Shown piece by piece: positions 503-35,084 of a DNA stretch of 38,516 nucleotides (position 1 is the first letter of the stretch; every line of letters starts with the position of its first letter). A model generated the notes under the pieces. That model saw only the letters and a program-made list of their open reading frames with translations. It did not search any database and had not been told where the DNA came from. Source of the DNA: a virus; IMG/VR virus record IMGVR_UViG_3300034523_000107, positions 1 to 38,516 of that record; one strand, 5' to 3'. Both the position numbers and the translations under genes were made by a program.

Positions 503-3500
503 CAGGTCATCCTCCCCAGAGCCGCGCGCTCGATGTTGTTCAAGTCGTAGACGTAGATTCCGCCGTTGTTGATCAGCGTTGACCCGTTTCCGTCCTGACC
601 GCGCAGCGTGAAGGTACCGTTCACCATGTTCAGCTCGATCAGTGGCCGACCTTGGGAGTCGACCGCCTGGGACCGAAGCGTCATACCCAGGATGAGCTGC
701 TGAATGAAAGCGGAGTTGATGAATGCCTGGTTGATAAACACCTGGCCGCCCTGAACAACGAACGGCGACGACAGCGTGCCGTTGATGCCGTTGACCACTG
801 CGAACCGGTCGGCGGACACTAGGAAGGTGCTTTGCAGGCCAGCTGGTCCGTTCTCTATGCCGAGACCGATACCAGCAGCAACGTACTGCCCCTGGGCGTT
901 CACCTGCAGCTTTACCGACCACATCGCACTGGCTTTGCCGTCGAGTGCCGCCTGGGCTTCGCTGACAGTTTGAACTGCCGCGTTGGTCTCGCCGACCTTT
1001 GCCTCCAGCGTTTCCGACGTCCGAGCAAGAGCTTCTATCTCAGTTGTCCGAACCCTCGACTCGTTGGCGATCGCTGCAGTGGAGCCCCACAGCTTCAGGG
1101 CGCCGGCTAGCTCGCCCTCGGCGTCGTCATCGCGTGACGAAGCGCGAAGAACCTGCACACTCTGGGCGGTGGATTCGACCTTGCCATCAACCTCCTCGAT
1201 CTTGGTCGTGTTGGTCTGGACCTGCTGGGCCAGGCCGTTGGCTGATTCGATGGACTGGCCAACGTCGATCCAGAACGACTCGTTTGGCGGAGCATTGGCG
1301 CCGCTCGGGTCAGCCGGCACATCGTGCACCGCCTGGTAGATCCGGCCGTTGCCCACGACCATCTGGCCTTCCTCATAGGGCTCGTCCTTGTTGTAGGCCT
1401 TCAGTCCGTCCAGGGCGTCGATCTGGTCCTGTAACCCGTCGATCTTTCCCTTCAGCTCCTCACCGAGCATGGACTCGTCGATTTCGCCGGAGATCATGTC
1501 AAGGATGGGGCCAGGGTCGGTCTGGGCGATGCCCTGAACCACCGTAGGAGCCGTCGGGTACCAGGGGCCGATGTTGCCAGTTCGGTCCACCAGGCGCGCC
1601 CAGAAGAAGAACGCGGCACCGCCGGCCAGGCCAGACATCACGTACTCAGCCTGTGGATACGCAAGGTCAGCCAGCTTGGTCGACAACTCTCGGTCGGTGC
1701 TTGTGCCGTACCAGATCTCGGTCCGCTGCGTGTCCTCTGCGCCTTCAGGGAAGCCCCACTTTAGGCGTATCGAGAACAGCTCGCTCGAAGCCGTCAGGTG
1801 CGTGACAGCTGGCGGAGGCGTGGTCTTCCCTTCGACATCGGTGAGAGCCGAGGCTGTCGGGATCGACGCCACGTCCATCGCATTTACGGCGCGCACCCGG
1901 GCCAGGTACTGGCCGGCATACACGCCGCGAACGTCCACTGCCAACTCGCCAGTACGCGGCACCTTGATCCAGTCGCGGGACCCCCAACGCCATTCCACGT
2001 CATAGGCCACGGCGCCGGGCGCAGCGTCCCAACCGATGGTCATGGTGGTGACGGCGATGCCCTGGTCCACCGCCGAGTGGCTGCTGATCAGCACGCGAGC
2101 CGGGGCATCTTGCACACCAGGCGGCAGCACGCTGATTGGCCTGTCGTCGATCATGGTGCCGTGGTCGATGGCGTCGAACTTGCTCGGCTCGTGCTGGATC
2201 AGGTCCAGCTGGAACCGAGTCCACTCAGGCCGCGTTACGTTGCGGACGTAGAACTGCATCAACTTGAGGTCGTCATAGTCGATCGCCCAGCCGCACTCCG
2301 GCTGCGGGGTTTCGCTGTAATCGGCCATCACGGTGATCTGCCGGCCGGATACGGAGCGCACTTGGCGCGATTCGGTCTTCCCGCTTGGCAGGTTGACCAA
2401 CAGGCGGGCAGCGGTCGGCACCTCAACATCACGGTCCAGGGTCACGACGCGGCCAGCGACGGCAGCAATGCGGCCGCCGTTGGCCCTGCCCGCCAGCATT
2501 GGATCGGAAAGCGCGACCACGGTCCCGGGCTTTGGGATGTAGCCATCGAGGCCGACATTGATCGTCGCGCCGCGAATCTGCAGCTGCTCGGTCAGCAGCG
2601 CCCACTTGCCGGCGCGCTGGGCCTGGCCGCGACTGGTGCAGCCCACGGCTTCGACGGACACATCGCGCACCCCGTACTCGGCCATGGCGTCTTCGTCAAA
2701 AACCGGCTCCTTGTCAGTCTCGAAGCCCTGGTCGGGGTCATCGAAAGAGACCATGGCCAGGCTGTGTCGGTCGCGCCACTTGCTGCCGGAGTACTTGACT
2801 ACGCCGTCTCCCAGGATCTGGGAGGTGGTGTAGGTGTACACCGGATCCTGCGGCATGTCGGCGTTCACTGCGATCTGGCTGCCGTCCCAGTAGGCCAGGC
2901 CGTGGAAGATCGCAGCCAGGTCTTGCAACACAGCCCAGGCCTCGGCCTGCTTCTGCAGGTACAGGTTGCAGGTGAAGCGCGGTTCCTGACCGCCCTTCCC
3001 GTCCGGCACCAGTTGATCGCACCACTGCGCGATCCGGTACAACGACCAGCGGTTGATCATCGATGCGTCGATGCGATCACCCAGGCCATAGTAGGGATGC
3101 AGGGCCAGGTCGTAGAACACCCAGGCCGGGTTGTTGGTATAGGCCTCCTTGAACGATCCGTCCCAGACTCCGTTGGTGGTCCCGGCGCCGCCGGTGGCAT
3201 AGGTGCGCGTCTCGGGATCGTAGTTCATCGGCACCCGAACGATGCGGCCGCGCATGAGGACAGCAATTTTCGGGAAGTCCCCGCCGAACTGCTGAGCGTC
3301 GTACTCAACGCAGCCGACTGCGGTGAGCGGGTACTCCTGGTCGCTATCGACCACCTCGGCGATCGCCTCCACGATCATCGCGTCCTGCACCAGCGAGCTG
3401 TTCGCTTCCGGCGTCAGGCGACGGGCACGGACTGTCCAGCTGCTACCCTCGGGCAGTTCGACGCGGTGCGATCGCTCGTACTTGGTGACGTTCTTGCGGC

Positions 3501-4044: not shown

Positions 4045-4071
4045 AAACAAAAAGACCTGCCGAAGCAGGTC
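4045..4071 (-). terminator. intrinsic terminator between I and J
   Basis: On the minus strand a perfect 7-bp stem (GACCTGC / GCAGGTC, 4054-4071) with a TTCG tetraloop is followed by a T run (4049-4053). It sits between the I stop and the J ribosome-binding site. The neighbouring string CTCCAGAAAC (4039-4048 on plus) recurs next to other terminators of this operon. Confidence 0.75.
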
Positions 4072-4088
4072 AGGTAGTCGAGTGGTGG

Positions 4089-4673
4089 CTAGAGCTTGTC
4101 TTGTGGATACACCCCGCCGGACTCGATCGCCCCGCCGATCTCCCGTTCGCCGTACAGGACCGGGTAGGGATTGCCCTGGGCGATGGTGGTCACGGCTGAG
4201 CCGAAGCCGTAGCTGGGGTTGTTCCCGTCCTCGTTGCGGTCGAGGCTACCGGTCTTGGCCGTTGGCGAGAGCATCTGCACAACGCCGCCCAGTGCCAGGG
4301 CTGCGCCGCCGGCCATCATCGCGATGCCAACCGCGGATGTGGTGCCGAAGGTGAAGTAACCCGCCACCACCAGTACCGCGCCGAGCACCACCTGGAACAG
4401 ACCGCCCTGCTTGCTGCCCTGAATGATCGGCGCGATGCGGATCTCCTCGGCGTCACTGCCCTGCAGGTCCAGCTCCTCGGGCGCCAGGTTGCGGCGACCG
4501 GAGAACACCGTGAACACCAGGCCGCGCTCCTCGCCGGTGGCCAGGAACTTCTCGAAGCCTGGCACCAGGATGCATAGCGCCTGTACGGCGTCCCGCGGGC
4601 TTTGCACATCCAGCAGGTACTCACGACCGAAGTGCTTGCGGAGCACGCCGTAGAGCTTCACCGTGCGCTTCAT
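4089..4673 (-). CDS. I: tail assembly protein I
   Basis: 194 aa. It matches the lambda tail assembly protein I family (TauI-like): the N-terminus MKRTVKLYGVLRKHFGREYLL is typical (shown here to its end only), followed by a ubiquitin-like fold segment and a central hydrophobic Gly/Ala-rich stretch around residues 95-140 (VVLGAVLVVAGYFTFGTTSA, AMMAGGAALALGG). The family takes part in tail tip assembly together with K and J. I chose the ATG at 4673 because it overlaps the K stop (ATGA). A longer frame to 4727 exists but its extra residues are just the K C-terminus in another frame. A terminator lies directly after the gene. Confidence 0.9.
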   Translation of the reverse strand: MKRTVKLYGVLRKHFGREYLLDVQSPRDAVQALCILVPGFEKFLATGEERGLVFTVFSGRRNLAPEELDLQGSDAEEIRIAPIIQGSKQGGLFQVVLGAVLVVAGYFTFGTTSAVGIAMMAGGAALALGGVVQMLSPTAKTGSLDRNEDGNNPSYGFGSAVTTIAQGNPYPVLYGEREIGGAIESGGVYPQDKL

Positions 4674-25712: not shown

Positions 25713-26482
25713 GCGTCACCTCGCGCCGAAGACCATGTGAACAGAACGACAGGACCACCAGCATCGGTCAGGCGGTCGACAGCGCGATCACCCAGGCACT
25801 TGCGCAGACCGACCAGCCCCAGGTTGGAGATCACGATGGTTGGCATGAGATTCCGGTACCGCAAATCGATCACCTCGAACAGCACCTGGCGCTCGAAGTC
25901 GCTGCCGTGCTGGACGCCCACCTCGTCGATTACCAGCAGGTCAGGCGCCAGCAGGCCGGCATACACGTCGCGCTCGCTCTGCTGGGAGGCTTTGTCGAAG
26001 GTCATTTTGATATCGCGGATGATCTCGATGGCCATGGTGTACCGCGCCGTGGTCCCGAACTCGCGAATGACGTGCTGGGCTACAGCACAGGCCAGGTGGG
26101 TCTTGCCGGTGCCGACATCGCCCAGCAGCATCATCGAGCGGCCCAGCTCCCAGTTGCGCTCGAACCCACGGGCGTAGCCATGGCACTCGTTCAGCGCAAC
26201 AGCTTGACCTTCGGTGTCGGCTCGGTAGTTGTCCAGGGTCGAGGCCCGGAAGCGCAACGGAATGCCAGAATCCAGCAACCTGGCGTTCGTCGCTCGGTCG
26301 CGCCGGATAGCCAGCGCAGGCTTGCGGATCTCGTCGTCGTTCGAGTGGACGGCGTCGAACTGGCAGCGCGTGCAACCCTGCCAGAAGTGCTCGCCCGAGA
26401 ACGACTCGATCAGCTCGTCGGTGTAATCGCCGTGCACACGGCACTGGCCATGCTTGTATTCGAGAATTTGCGGTGCGTTCAT
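25709..26482 (-). CDS. dnaC: helicase loader, DnaC-like AAA+ ATPase
   Basis: 257 aa. Walker A GDVGTGKT at 121-128 and Walker B DLLVIDEVG at 181-189, typical of the DnaC/IstB AAA+ group. The N-terminus has a possible zinc site (Cys14-x2-His17 and Cys37-x2-Cys40). It loads the replicative helicase at the origin. The start overlaps the upstream initiator stop and its end overlaps the helicase start, each by 4 bp, giving an initiator-loader-helicase cassette. Confidence 0.93.
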   Translation of the reverse strand: MNAPQILEYKHGQCRVHGDYTDELIESFSGEHFWQGCTRCQFDAVHSNDDEIRKPALAIRRDRATNARLLDSGIPLRFRASTLDNYRADTEGQAVALNECHGYARGFERNWELGRSMMLLGDVGTGKTHLACAVAQHVIREFGTTARYTMAIEIIRDIKMTFDKASQQSERDVYAGLLAPDLLVIDEVGVQHGSDFERQVLFEVIDLRYRNLMPTIVISNLGLVGLRKCLGDRAVDRLTDAGGPVVLFTWSSARGDA

Positions 26483-27261
26483 GGTCTTGCTACCCGGTAA
26501 GTCCCGTCAGGCTGGCGAACCAGGCCTTCGGTGTGGTCAATCTTGTCGAGGTCGAGGTGGTTGGATTGGCTTGCCCCTCTGGTGCCGGCGGTCCAAGCCT
26601 CTTTTTTCAACCGGTCGACAATCCAAGAGGTCTTGAGCCCCTGCCAAGCTGCGGTCATTGCCTCAGCCAAGGCCTTATCGGGGCTGATGCCCGCCGCTCG
26701 ACACCCCTCAAGCTCGGCCAGAACGTTGTTCCAGATCGTCAGATTCAGGGGACCCTTCTTCTTCCGGAACTGGAAGTAATCACGGGCGGTTTGTTCGCTC
26801 AGATCGGGGGGGGCCAGTTCAAGCATTTGCTCTACCGTGAACCCATCACTTCCCTTCTTACGGTTCCTTGATGGTTCACCTTTGGGTTCTATTACGGTTC
26901 TGGGGGCATCTGGTGCCGGGGTGTCCGGCATCTGGTGCCGGGGTGAGGGGCACGTGGTGCCGGGGTCCCCGGCATCTGGTGCAGGGGGGCATTTAATGCC
27001 GGGGGCATAAGATGCCGGGGTTACGATGTAATAGGTCGACCGCCCGGCACGCTCTTTCGCCACCAGTAGGCCGACACTTTCCAGCCAGCGGATCGCGTTG
27101 CGCACCGCCCGTTCCTTCAGGCAGGTGCGCTCGCAGATCCTGGCGATGGAAGGCCAGCACACGCCGTCGTCGTTGGCGTTGTCGGCCAGAGAGATCAGCA
27201 CCGACTTCTGGGCAGCGCTCATCTCGAGCGGCCAGCAAGCAGTCATCAGGATGGTACTCAT
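26479..27261 (-). CDS. O: replication initiator, O-like, winged-helix N-terminus
   Basis: 260 aa. The N-terminal 85 residues are a winged-helix domain of the phage O / helix_turn_helix_36 type (LEMSAAQKSVLISLADNAND; CWPSIARICERTCLKERAVR; WLESVGLLVAKERAGRSTYY). Residues about 86-125 are a Pro/Cys/Gly-rich linker encoded by iterons at 26905-27021. The C-terminal part (TARDYFQFRKKKGPLNLTIW) is likely to contact the loader or helicase. As in lambda O, the origin lies inside the gene. It overlaps its neighbours by 4 bp on both sides. Confidence 0.9.
   Translation of the reverse strand: MSTILMTACWPLEMSAAQKSVLISLADNANDDGVCWPSIARICERTCLKERAVRNAIRWLESVGLLVAKERAGRSTYYIVTPASYAPGIKCPPAPDAGDPGTTCPSPRHQMPDTPAPDAPRTVIEPKGEPSRNRKKGSDGFTVEQMLELAPPDLSEQTARDYFQFRKKKGPLNLTIWNNVLAELEGCRAAGISPDKALAEAMTAAWQGLKTSWIVDRLKKEAWTAGTRGASQSNHLDLDKIDHTEGLVRQPDGTYRVARP
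26905..27021 (-). repeat. replication origin iterons (six repeats) inside O-like gene
   Basis: Six copies of an 18-bp element with plus-strand consensus GGCATCTGGTGCCGGGGT start at 26905, 26927, 26949, 26971, 26988 and 27004. The first four are spaced exactly 22 bp, the last two 17 and 16 bp. Each has GGCA...TGCC dyad symmetry (one has TGCA). A less GC-rich stretch with repeated GGTTC (about 26830-26904) follows on the coding-downstream side, as the unwinding region does next to the lambda iterons. Confidence 0.85.
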
Positions 27262-28819: not shown

Positions 28820-29595
28820 TGGTGTTCTCCAGCAGCGCCGAACAGCTCGGCCAGGTCAATTTGGTAGACGGCTGCCCAGGCGGCAGCAGGCCAGGAGCGA
28901 ACCCAGCCGAATCGAGGATCTTGGACTTTCGGGGCGCTCACTCCGTGGCTGTCGCACCAGTTCTTGAGCGGGCGGAAACCCTGACCGCCGAAGCTGCGGT
29001 GTGCAGCTTTCTCCACCGCAGTTACGGTGGCGTGCTGGCAGCCACGGCCGAGCTCGTTTTCCAGGTGCATGACCTTGCGCACAGCTGCGGACGCGGTGGC
29101 CATCGCCGTGGCTTCGCGGCGGCTACCGATCTCGGCCTTGGTGGCGACCGCCTGGTCCCGCTGCTCAAGCGCCAGCTGCTCCGAACGCTTCGAGGCCAGC
29201 AGGTGCTCCAGGGCAGTGATGTAGTCGGTAGGCAGCGCGGGCGCCTGCTCAGGTGCTGGCCGGAAGTAACGCTCCACCAGCTGCTCCTGAACCTCCCATG
29301 CCAGGTCGTCGGTGAAGGCCTTTACCAGCATCAGGTAGCCACGCTCAGTCATCAGGACGCCCTTCGAAGTCCTTGGCGCGAATGCCTGCTCGATCGACTG
29401 CGTACGAATATCGTCCGCAGTTACTTCGAAGAAGTGGCGCTCCTGGCTAAACCGGCCCCGGTGCTCGTTGAAGTTCCGGCGGGCTGTACCGTCGGGCCGC
29501 TCATGCACCTGATCGATCATCGCCAGGGTGACGACGCGCTGACCGCGATACTCGACGATGGGTAGTTGGGTGTTGTGGATGGTGACGAGATTCAT
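28816..29595 (-). CDS. ORF6N-domain antirepressor-like protein
   Basis: 259 aa. The N-terminal 110 residues match the ORF6N domain found in phage antirepressors: LPIVEYRGQRVVTLAMIDQV, the RRNFNEHRGRFSQERHFFEV segment, and VLMTERGYLMLVKAFTDDLA. The C-terminal part (about 130-259) is a long helix (RSEQLALEQRDQAVATKAEI) and a domain with the KNWCDSHGV segment. Such proteins can oppose CI-type repressors or act in early regulation. It lies in the early block with 4-bp overlaps on both sides. Confidence 0.82.
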   Translation of the reverse strand: MNLVTIHNTQLPIVEYRGQRVVTLAMIDQVHERPDGTARRNFNEHRGRFSQERHFFEVTADDIRTQSIEQAFAPRTSKGVLMTERGYLMLVKAFTDDLAWEVQEQLVERYFRPAPEQAPALPTDYITALEHLLASKRSEQLALEQRDQAVATKAEIGSRREATAMATASAAVRKVMHLENELGRGCQHATVTAVEKAAHRSFGGQGFRPLKNWCDSHGVSAPKVQDPRFGWVRSWPAAAWAAVYQIDLAELFGAAGEHQ

Positions 29596-30193: not shown

Positions 30194-30518
30194 GGCCTGG
30201 CACCTCCGGGCTGGAAGCACTGCCCTTCTCCACCGACCAAACGAGCGTGCTTACCGTCTCGCTCAGGAACTTGAGGGCCGACATCGCGTCGCAGTAGACG
30301 AGCTCTCCGTAGTTGAGCGAGTCGTACATGTGCTGGCAAATCTGCCCCATTCCAGACGCAAGCACCTTGGCCGTGTGCAATGCGTCCTCCGCGTTGACGC
30401 CCCCCCCTACCTTGAGCAGATACAGCCCGCGGTTGTCGATCGGAGTGTCGAGGAAATCGAGCTCGACGGTCTTAGGTGGTTGCGCTGGTGATGGCGCGGT
30501 GGTATTTTTCGGGTGCAT
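30186..30518 (-). CDS. DUF3077-like protein
   Basis: 110 aa. The segment GLYLLKVGGGVNAEDALHTA and the helix following it fit the DUF3077 family, which is frequent in Pseudomonas and has no known function. The N-terminal 30 residues are Pro-rich. TTGGAG lies about 10 nt upstream of the ATG at 30518. It is the first gene after the intergenic region with the bidirectional terminator (30572-30600), so it starts a second part of the early block. Confidence 0.7.
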   Translation of the reverse strand: MHPKNTTAPSPAQPPKTVELDFLDTPIDNRGLYLLKVGGGVNAEDALHTAKVLASGMGQICQHMYDSLNYGELVYCDAMSALKFLSETVSTLVWSVEKGSASSPEVPGHE

Positions 30519-32690: not shown

Positions 32691-33080
32691 ATGACCGCAG
32701 CAACCACGATCACCATCGGTAACTGGCAAGGCTTCCTAGGCCGCGGCCTGGCAGAGCGTGAACTGCAATGCGTGCTTGGGGTAGCTCAAGGCCAGAGCAG
32801 CAAGGAGCTTGGTCGTGACTTGGGGATAGCTGCCGACAGCGTGAAAAAGCGTCTCGCGTCGGCGATGTTCAAGCTGCAGGTTAACCGCCGGGCGGCGCTG
32901 GTTGGCGAGGCGATGAGGCGCGGGCTGATCTCGCCCGCTGCGATCCTGGCTGCGATCTTGGCGGTTCACGGCGCGGTCAGCGACGAGATGCTGCTGAAGG
33001 TCCGTCGGGGCGGCGGCGAACGCCGGGTCGAGATGCGCACGGTGGCGCGGCGAATCGAGCAGCAGGTTGCGGTGGCGTAG
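32691..33080 (+). CDS. LuxR-type HTH regulator
   Basis: 129 aa. The GerE/LuxR-type helix-turn-helix covers about residues 20-75: GLAERELQCVLGVAQGQSSK, then ELGRDLGIAADSVKKRLASA and MFKLQVNRRAALVGEAMRRG. There is no N-terminal sensory domain, so it is a stand-alone DNA-binding protein. The C-terminal 40 residues are basic. It is the first gene of the rightward operon, with its own promoter next to an operator-like palindrome, and is followed by the repeat array. It may regulate the array or the genes after it. Confidence 0.85.
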   Translation: MTAATTITIGNWQGFLGRGLAERELQCVLGVAQGQSSKELGRDLGIAADSVKKRLASAMFKLQVNRRAALVGEAMRRGLISPAAILAAILAVHGAVSDEMLLKVRRGGGERRVEMRTVARRIEQQVAVA

Positions 33081-33414
33081 CAGCGGCGAGCGCCTTCAGT
33101 GAGGGCGCTGTCCGGTGCGAAGGCACGATAGGGCCAGGATTGGCTGGGTGGGGCCAGGCTGGGCTCGGCCAGGCATGGCAAGGGCTGTTTACAGCGGTCT
33201 GCCCTTTCGTTGAGAGGGCTTTCCGGTGGCGATAGTCATCATAGGGTTGGGCTGGGCCGGGTGCGGCATGGTTCGCCAAGGTAAGGCATGGGCTGCTAGT
33301 CAGCGTAATGGCCATTCGTTGAGTGGTCATTGCGGTGCGAAGGCATCACGGGGTCGGGTAGGCCACGGCAGGCTGTGGCATGGCCGGGTTCGGCGAGGCA
33401 AGGGCGATAACTCG
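33081..33414 (+). repeat. three ~110-nt structured modules with CNNGG pentamer tracts
   Basis: Modules start with CAGCG at 33081, 33192 and 33301 (next CAGCG at 33415). Each contains hairpin A with the same 9-nt loop (TTCAGTGAG at 33095, TTCGTTGAG at 33206 and 33315) on different stems: AGCGCC/GGCGCT, GCCCT/AGGGC, AATGGCCA/TGGTCATT. Hairpin B follows: GTGC-gaag-GCAC, GTGGC-gata-GTCAT, GTGC-gaag-GCAT. Then comes a tract with a 5-nt period, about ten units of NNNGG, mostly CNNGG (about 33132-33183, 33247-33291, 33350-33405). Hairpin C closes: GCTG-ttta-CAGC, GCTG-ctagt-CAGC, GCG-ataact-CGC. Stems change while pairing is kept, which points to a structured RNA. No frame through it looks like a real protein. 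Confidence 0.8.
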
Positions 33415-33421
33415 CAGCGAG

Positions 33422-33478
33422 GTCACTGGCGCTTAATCCAGTGACAACCTCAAAGCAACTTCCAGCGAGGTTGCTTTG
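33422..33478 (+). other. two more hairpins between array and RAMP-like gene
   Basis: GTCACTGG-cgcttaat-CCAGTGAC (33422-33445) and CAAAGCAAC-ttccagcgag-GTTGCTTTG (33451-33478). Both are perfect 8-9-bp stems without T runs, so not terminators. Each carries a CAGCGAGGT string (33415 and 33463), linking them to the module boundaries of the array. They lie about 75 nt before the ATG at 33552; the remaining 33479-33551 holds no other feature besides the Shine-Dalgarno TTGGAG. Confidence 0.7.
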
Positions 33479-33551
33479 AAGTTCCAACACGCAAAGCACC
33501 GTGCATCGCATATGGCGAAAAGGCACACGCAGCTATCTATTGGAGATATAC

Positions 33552-34118
33552 ATGCAAACTCTGAAAGTTAAAATCGTAGGCACCCGTCCGCTTCTCGTTC
33601 ACGCCGACGTGTTCGCCGATCCGCTGAACAAACTTACCAAAGCGCATAAACAACTGACTTCGAAGCGCAAAAAGTCCGACGAAGACCACGAACTTATCGC
33701 TCGCAGCGAATGGCGTGGCGGCTTGTATTTCTCGGAAGATATTGGCCCATACTTGCCTGGCATCAACATCGAATCCGCCCTCGTCGCCGGCGGCAAACTT
33801 TCTAAGATGGGCACCCAGCTCAAGCGCTCAGTCGAGATCATGGATACGCGCTGCCCGATCATCTACGAAGGCCCGCGCAGCGTCGAAGGTCTGTGGGACG
33901 AGCAGTTCTACGATGCTCGTTCGGTCAAGGTCGGCACTGCACGGATAACTCGATACCGCCCACTCTTCCGCTCCTGGGCCGTGGTCTGCGAGATCGCCTA
34001 CGACCAAGAGTCCATCGACCGTGACCAGGTATTGAAGTGCCTGGAGGATGCTGGACAGTACTGCGGTGTAGGCGACTACCGCCCCAAATTCGGCCGCTTC
34101 GCCGTAGAGGTGCTGTGA
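33552..34118 (+). CDS. RAMP-like (Cas7/Cas5-fold candidate) phage protein
   Basis: 188 aa. I recognise it as a member of a phage family without known function whose pattern recalls RAMP proteins: an N-terminal strand KVKIVGTRPLLVHADVFADP, a loop YLPGINIESALVAGGKL comparable to the PGxxxxGAxR region of Cas7/Cas5 types, and a C-terminal glycine-rich segment CGVGDYRPKFGRFAVEV (172-187) like the RAMP G-loop. No catalytic His of Cas6 type is evident. A role in binding RNA is inferred, not shown. ATG 33552 has TTGGAGATATAC upstream; a longer frame from 33501 has no site. It follows the structured repeat array and is coupled to the next gene by TGATG. Confidence 0.72.
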   Translation: MQTLKVKIVGTRPLLVHADVFADPLNKLTKAHKQLTSKRKKSDEDHELIARSEWRGGLYFSEDIGPYLPGINIESALVAGGKLSKMGTQLKRSVEIMDTRCPIIYEGPRSVEGLWDEQFYDARSVKVGTARITRYRPLFRSWAVVCEIAYDQESIDRDQVLKCLEDAGQYCGVGDYRPKFGRFAVEVL

Positions 34119-34597
34119 TGGCTGTCGTGCCGCTCAAGCCGAACACTTGGAGCCTGGAAAAGGCGATCGAGCAGTTCAAGGCTGACAAGTTCGAAGACGG
34201 CCAGCTCATCAGTCACGCCTGACTTGAGTGGGCGCTCAATCTGCCGAAGCCGACCAGTGCGAAGGAGATGGTCAACTGCCAGTTCATCATCTTGGACCGT
34301 GTCGAACAGTTCAAGGAGGCGCTGCTGACCCAGCACCAGATCTACATCGTCAGCGTGCGCGGTAAAGGTTACCGGATCGTCCCGCCGAGCGATCAGGCGT
34401 TTATTGCAGTCGACAACGCCATGCAGGGAGTTCGCCGAGAGTTCAGCAAGTGCGAGAAGGTTATGAAGAACACTCGCCTCGGTGAACTTGATGCAGACCA
34501 GATCAAGCGGCACACCGATGCACAGTTGAAAGTATCTGCAATTGCCGGGATGGTCGGCAAAGGAAAGCGCGAAGTGTTCAGCCTGTTCAAGGCATAA
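34118..34597 (+). pseudogene. partner of RAMP-like gene, interrupted by in-frame UGA
   Basis: One frame of 159 codons runs from ATG 34118 to the stop at 34595-34597, broken only by a TGA at codon 35 (34220-34222). Before it: MAVVPLKPNTWSLEKAIEQF to QLISHA; after it: LEWALNLPKPTSAKEMVNCQ, then VSVRGKGYRIVPPSDQAF and TRLGELDADQIKRHTDAQLK. Both halves form one continuous helical protein, and Trp (TGG) fits the gap (HA-W-LEWAL). The ATG at 34268 has GGAG directly beside it, too near for good initiation. Either a recent nonsense mutation, a sequencing error, or UGA readthrough (the next base is C, a leaky context). The TGATG overlap with the RAMP-like gene suggests they work together. Confidence 0.75.
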
Positions 34598-34679: not shown

Positions 34680-35084
34680 ATGCTCATGCTCAGCCGGAAC
34701 ATCGGCAAGGCCGTCATCATCGGCGGCAATATCCGGGTCACTGTGGCCCAGGTGAACGGCTGCCAAGTCCGCTTGGGGATCGACGCACCGCAGGGTGTGG
34801 TTGTTGATCGAGAGGAGATTCACCAGCGCCGGGTTGCCGAGGGAACCGCCCAGGACGCGCCAGCTTTCAACATCGACGAGCACGTCAAGCTGGTCGCCGA
34901 CGCACGCCGGTATCGCTGGCTGCGCGATCAGGCCCTTACCACCGACAGCGGATTCACTCCTGCCGTGTACGACAGGGCAGGAGGTATCGGCACGGTGCGC
35001 GTTGGCGAAGACCTGGACCTTCGCATTGACGCCGCGATCCGGAGCTTCACCCAGCAGCAGGTGGTGCAGGAGCAGCAGCCATGA
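34680..35084 (+). CDS. CsrA/RsmA-like regulator with C-terminal extension
   Basis: 134 aa; host CsrA/RsmA is about 61 aa. Residues 1-55 are CsrA: MLMLSRNIGKAVIIGGNIRV, then VNGCQVRLGIDAPQGVVVDR and EEI, with RNA-contact residues at the expected places (Arg6 and Arg44). The added C-terminal 75 residues (VADARRYRWLRDQALTTDSG; LDLRIDAAIRSF) contain the RYRWLRD / IDAAI pattern common in small phage proteins. CsrA binds GGA motifs in mRNA leaders and changes translation; the phage form may act on host or phage mRNA. ATG 34680 has AAAGGAG 7 nt upstream. A -35 TTGACA at 34626-34631 lacks a good -10. Confidence 0.88.
   Translation: MLMLSRNIGKAVIIGGNIRVTVAQVNGCQVRLGIDAPQGVVVDREEIHQRRVAEGTAQDAPAFNIDEHVKLVADARRYRWLRDQALTTDSGFTPAVYDRAGGIGTVRVGEDLDLRIDAAIRSFTQQQVVQEQQP

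Follow-up and report, generated by a model that had tools for sequence, protein, structure and literature searches.

A probable VIPR locus of a temperate Pseudomonas phage: two of the three guides have predicted natural targets

Organization of the locus and its RNA array

The window, i.e., the whole 38,516-nucleotide stretch of viral DNA analyzed here, carries three tracts of YNNGG pentamers set between hairpin-rich segments, with a regulator gene on the 5' side and the genes vipr and vap on the 3' side (Table 1). An earlier note, made from the letters alone, had proposed a three-module array in this region, and the modules indeed follow each other with start-to-start spacings of 111 and 109 nt. 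Leaders and trailers like those of the window are present in most relatives.

Table 1. Positions of the genes and RNA elements in the window.
Feature	Position	Strand	Evidence or remark
LuxR/GerE-type regulator, immediately 5' of array	32691..33080	+	Pfam GerE E 8.6e-9; PHROG 3282
Leader with first hairpins A and B, precedes tract 1	33081..33128	+	repeat family D1; fold
vrRNA tract T1, 11 YNNGG pentamers	33129..33183	+	tract score 21.8
Junction 1, hairpins C, A, B	33184..33241	+	MFE z -4.15; covariation
vrRNA tract T2, 10 pentamers	33242..33291	+	tract score 18.2
Junction 2, hairpins C, A, B	33292..33348	+	MFE z -5.32; covariation
vrRNA tract T3, 11 pentamers	33349..33403	+	tract score 18.4
3' trailer, hairpin C and two more hairpins	33404..33485	+	MFE z -6.0
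vipr, RAMP-fold protein, 188 aa, PHROG 4652	33552..34118	+	phmmer; Foldseek
vap accessory gene, PHROG 5926	34118..34597	+	in-frame TGA at 34220-34222

The variable dinucleotides of the pentamers read AG CA TT TG GG CA TG TC CA AT AA in T1, AG TG TG CG GC AT TC AA AA AT in T2 and GG CG AG AC AG GT AT CG TC GA AA in T3. Tract scores in the window were 18-22 (the scored segment of T1 takes in two pentamers preceding the tract), as compared to a maximum of about 12 in order-2 Markov sequences built from the array region and from the whole window. The same score found no pentamer tract on the reverse strand. Related phages carry 1-8 tracts each, with a constant GG and a near-random NN; over 83 tracts, the entropy was 1.92 and 2.00 bits at the two N positions and 0.41 and 0.56 bits at the two G positions. 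A coding function of the array was considered and rejected because a 5-nt period is no codon period. Elsewhere in the window, a 22/44-nt tandem repeat at 26903-27020 lies within a minus-strand gene (26479-27261) and codes for a proline-rich stretch.

The hairpins fall into three kinds: hairpin C is formed by GCUG and CAGC, hairpin A has a variable stem closed by UUC-NNN-GAG, and hairpin B has the form GGUG../..CACC. There is one more copy of hairpin A than there are tracts. The earlier note had seen in hairpin A an almost invariant 9-nt loop, TTCNNNGAG; the motif is present, but folding indicates that it consists of UUC/GAG pairs closing a variable triloop. Similarly, the repeated elements listed for each module were found, but their order is better read as a tract followed by hairpins C, A and B.

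The two internal junctions fold with z-scores of -4.2 and -5.3. The window and its relatives together provide 49 distinct junctions, and over this set the pairing of stems A and C reaches 95.1%, against 75.3% in shuffles, with 122 double-sided changes where the shuffles have a mean of 39. This pairing collapses in every slid register. For hairpin B, 44 of the 49 junctions show complete pairing (shuffles: mean 19, maximum 29). Pairing that is kept through double-sided changes across these modules confirms the selected RNA structure suspected from the window, and the hairpins are under selection as RNA.

In 4 of 49 junctions, columns 6, 13 and 52 of the junction alignment read A-U-A instead of G-C-G, so that the base of the GCUG/CAGC hairpin varies jointly with the first base of the hairpin B stem. 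The junction may therefore have an alternative fold in which CAGC pairs with GGUG. Rfam searches at gathering and E-value thresholds gave nothing relevant to the array (a match to mir-2059 with an E-value of 0.28 was dismissed as chance), a tRNA search gave no hit, and neither did a plasmid BLAST with the locus.

The Vipr protein and neighboring genes

The 188-aa protein encoded downstream of the array matches the Vipr protein of Escherichia phage SUSP1 (PDB 36pp) over residues 1-188 (phmmer E 2e-52) with an identity of about 46%, and vap holds the same family position. An AlphaFold model of moderate confidence (pLDDT 73) was closest to Csm3/Cas7 chains in Foldseek, with Csm3 at E 4e-5 and the others weaker and TM-scores of about 0.4-0.5. 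The protein had been called RAMP-like on the basis of its C-terminal part, and both the full-length homology to SUSP1 Vipr and the predicted Csm3/Cas7-like fold agree with that. The vipr gene is intact and 96-99% identical to the copies in sibling phages.

VIPR (Viral Interference Programmable Repeat) was reported in a preprint of April/June 2026, with SUSP1 and a Pseudomonas fulva prophage as the systems studied (PMC13142463). Its parts are Vipr, which is a small RAMP protein, together with an accessory protein (vap) and vrRNAs of about 100 nt that are bound by Vipr and consist of alternating GGY and NN, with 9-16 YNNGG repeats in which GGY is conserved and NN hypervariable, and a structured 3' tail. 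For SUSP1, vrRNAs were sequenced and co-purified with Vipr, the NN dinucleotides were shown to pair with double-stranded DNA while one base is skipped per unit, and target binding represses the gene (PMC13142463). The preprint also describes a Vipr tree of seven types, of which type II, a candidate type for the window, is marked by its place in the tree, its array layout and a predicted DNA-binding vap, and it lists vipr genes themselves among the targets (PMC13142463). The statement in the earlier note that no described phage system has this plan is thus outdated, the more so since SUSP1 Vipr is represented in the PDB.

Homologues of Vipr were found in 134 phage records, 23 viral contigs and two Pseudomonas genomes. 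Pentamer tracts occur in the DNA flanking the homologues of Pseudomonas phage LESphi2, Citrobacter phage Moogle, Escherichia phage SUSP1 and Gordonia phage MakoManhole, and also at the homologue loci from the 23 viral contigs and the two Pseudomonas genomes. An RNA array thus accompanies the protein, in line with the proposal that the two act together. In a 72%-identical relative (L026), tracts lie on both sides of vipr, at 2851-2910 and 4069-4229; other members of the clade differ in this. The MakoManhole locus (L003) contains three near-identical hairpins (1647-1696, 2980-3026 and 3100-3146) that adjoin the tracts and resemble the acceptor stem and T arm of a tRNA, and these hairpins were not recognized by ARAGORN and Rfam.

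The reading frame of vap is broken by the stop codon noted in Table 1, and relatives have intact copies. This interruption may weaken the system. In the published work, vap1 acts as an enhancer of protection, and the measurements of repression used vipr and vrRNA (PMC13142463). Further downstream, 34683-35084 encodes a CsrA-like protein extended at its C-terminus by a segment similar to the back half of the gene matched by guide 3 (see below). A related prophage (L033, 863-2058) has a LuxR-like gene adjoining csrA, with neither vipr nor an array between them, possibly representing the locus without VIPR. No Cas domains were detected among the neighboring proteins scanned, and no CRISPR direct repeats with spacers near vipr.

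Reading of the guides and predicted targets

The 1-nt-skip rule was taken from the preprint (PMC13142463) and tested here on different data, using 72 unique guides from relatives, with the guides of the window excluded, against 1.8 Mb of phage DNA. Some of these sequences had been selected by window-guide patterns, which gives the guides of other phages no advantage. With a skip of one base, 16 of the 72 guides matched all 18 positions and 18 more matched with one mismatch, together 34/72, whereas none of 72 dinucleotide-shuffled guides reached 17-18 of 18. Only one guide matched with skip 0 and none with skip 2; skip 3 is uninformative because tracts then match themselves.

The match was not uniform along the tract. 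For the 43 guides with hits, the last pentamer, which is usually CAAGG, matched the targets at a mean of 0.31, near the chance value of 0.25, as compared to 0.64 for the penultimate pentamer, and positions 5' of the tract were at chance. In this clade, the last repeat of a tract thus has the appearance of a cap that is not read. When homologous guides are compared, Y differs in 15% of the pentamers and each N in about 3%; in unrelated guides the order is reversed, with differences of 46% at Y and 72-75% at each N. NN carries the guide information, and these figures are evidence that it is held by selection while Y drifts.

By this rule, guides 1 and 3 of the window have predicted natural targets. 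The 16-base core of T1 matched 104 viral stretches, while three comparable cores of T2 and T3 gave 22, 11 and 27; the matches to T1 represent one related gene family in many copies and are not independent events. In 63 of the 80 T1 stretches examined, the match was antisense to the protein motif VWDHCPQNC, with the skips on wobble positions. The protein concerned is an anti-repressor (PHROG 63 and 1726). The nine-dinucleotide form of T1 matched at 18/18 in the VIPR phages of L007 and L012, and the site was found with one mismatch in four more of the 19 sibling VIPR records, so that 6/19 carry it with at most one mismatch. The site is absent from the window, which has a different anti-repressor.

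For T3, the first nine dinucleotides matched at 18/18 in one of 299 Pseudomonas genomes. By count, this search of the 299 genomes (3 hits) was not above its reversed-pattern control (2 hits), so the identity of the matched gene is what speaks for T3. The 18/18 site is the start of the DRITLVLRP gene, which directly follows csrA in a related prophage that has a similar S24-type repressor, a LuxR-like gene and csrA, with no vipr between them. Most viral matches of the 16-base T3 core have the same N-terminal motif as this gene. Viral matches of the shorter T3 core mostly differ in the first dinucleotide, and the nine-dinucleotide pattern gave nothing in the viral contigs. The phage of L017 has a T3 site with one mismatch, and the T3 motif is absent from the window. 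There is no convincing target for T2: the 22 and 11 hits in its two viral scans are largely in unrelated proteins, and none of the four one-mismatch hits in 199 Pseudomonas genomes was recognizable as a phage gene.

The window is itself matched by guides of its siblings. Guides of L013 match it at 18/18 at positions 29555, in an ORF6N anti-repressor gene, and 33588, inside vipr, and sibling guides match with one mismatch at 30504, 30918 and 31170 in the early region, including a KilA-N gene. Shuffled sibling guides had at best two mismatches in the window. LuxR-like genes, the type found upstream of the array, are matched by guides of sibling phages as well. Since sibling guides match the window, targeting is predicted to run both ways, with vipr genes among the targets.

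Interpretation and comparison with known systems

This temperate Pseudomonas phage very probably carries a VIPR system like those of SUSP1 and P. fulva. By analogy with the published system, we infer transcription, processing, coating by Vipr, DNA binding and repression. The luxR-vipr region would be transcribed to give about three RNAs, each with a YNNGG tract capped by hairpins. RAMP-fold Vipr subunits would line the tract, holding its GGY bases, as in the published model (PMC13142463). The NN dinucleotides would pair with double-stranded DNA, one target base being skipped per unit, a step supported by the natural-target matches, and binding would repress the target gene, as in SUSP1. Guide 1 would act on anti-repressor genes and guide 3 on the start of the early gene after csrA in sibling prophages. 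Because guides 1 and 3 aim at these genes, the likely effect is to control whether competitors sharing the host enter lysis or lysogeny, and the phage probably uses its guides to switch such competitors off.

Several other readings were weighed against this one. The family assignment could be right while this particular copy is losing function through the interruption of vap and the loss of a target for guide 2. The in-frame TGA and the lack of a T2 target fit such decay, but vipr is intact and close to its sibling copies, 18/18 matches to sibling genes persist for T1 and T3, the hairpins are intact, and vap1 is an enhancer in the published work; we consider decay unlikely. Far less probable is the idea that the RAMP-like protein cuts or measures the RNA as its substrate, or that the RNA is a processing or regulatory element without DNA targets. 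Cas6-like RAMPs do cut RNA, and the fold search gave a weak Cas6 match, but the closest folds are Csm3/Cas7 backbone subunits, NN is hypervariable, and DNA targets are strongly enriched under one specific code. The suggestion in the earlier note that the RNA is cut or counted thus found no support, the tracts being guides read against DNA at two bases per pentamer. Hardly credible is a role of the tracts as DNA, e.g., protein-binding sites with a 5-bp period in a partition or origin site. That spacing corresponds to roughly half a turn of the helix and the tracts lie in tandem, yet the covariation of the hairpins includes wobble pairs, as in RNA, NN obeys the target code, and the SUSP1 vrRNAs were obtained as RNA together with Vipr (PMC13142463).

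Within the preferred VIPR reading, we tentatively suggest, with the odds somewhat against it, that the siblings are engaged in a mutual guide war in which a phage's own guides shape its gene content and the last pentamer is a fixed, unread cap. This suggestion derives from the lack of T1 and T3 sites in the window itself, while 6/19 sibling VIPR records carry the T1 site. The unread last pentamer, the drift of Y in homologous guides and the two-way targeting of siblings may be additions to VIPR as described in the main text of the preprint (PMC13142463).

VIPR, described only recently, is a minimal RNA-guided system whose code is noncontiguous, and it has been proposed to be ancestral to the CRISPR RAMPs. 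The locus contributes a further member, two of whose three guides have predicted natural targets, together with an independent check of the 1-nt-skip rule on other data in Pseudomonas phages. Its sibling set makes self-avoidance and phage-against-phage targeting testable. SUSP1 VIPR (PDB 36pp; NC_028808) shares with the window a full-length homologous Vipr, an adjoining vap, and YNNGG tracts with structured tails. It differs in having one tract upstream and three downstream instead of three upstream, units of NNGGT where those of the window are mostly NNGGC, different hairpins, and a vap that is not interrupted. The P. fulva prophage system is described as that of a Pseudomonas phage aimed at resident Pseudomonas prophages and lysis-lysogeny regulators (PMC13142463), as predicted for the window. 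The two are probably of the same clade, a likeness drawn from the published description.

The predicted fold of Vipr is shared with Csm3/Cas7 of class 1 CRISPR-Cas. Such backbone RAMPs form a protein coat on the guide RNA in which pairing is periodically interrupted. With no CRISPR repeats near vipr and no Cas domain among the neighboring proteins scanned, the locus does not look like a class 1 CRISPR-Cas system, from which it also differs by its two-of-five noncontiguous code and by being carried on a phage.
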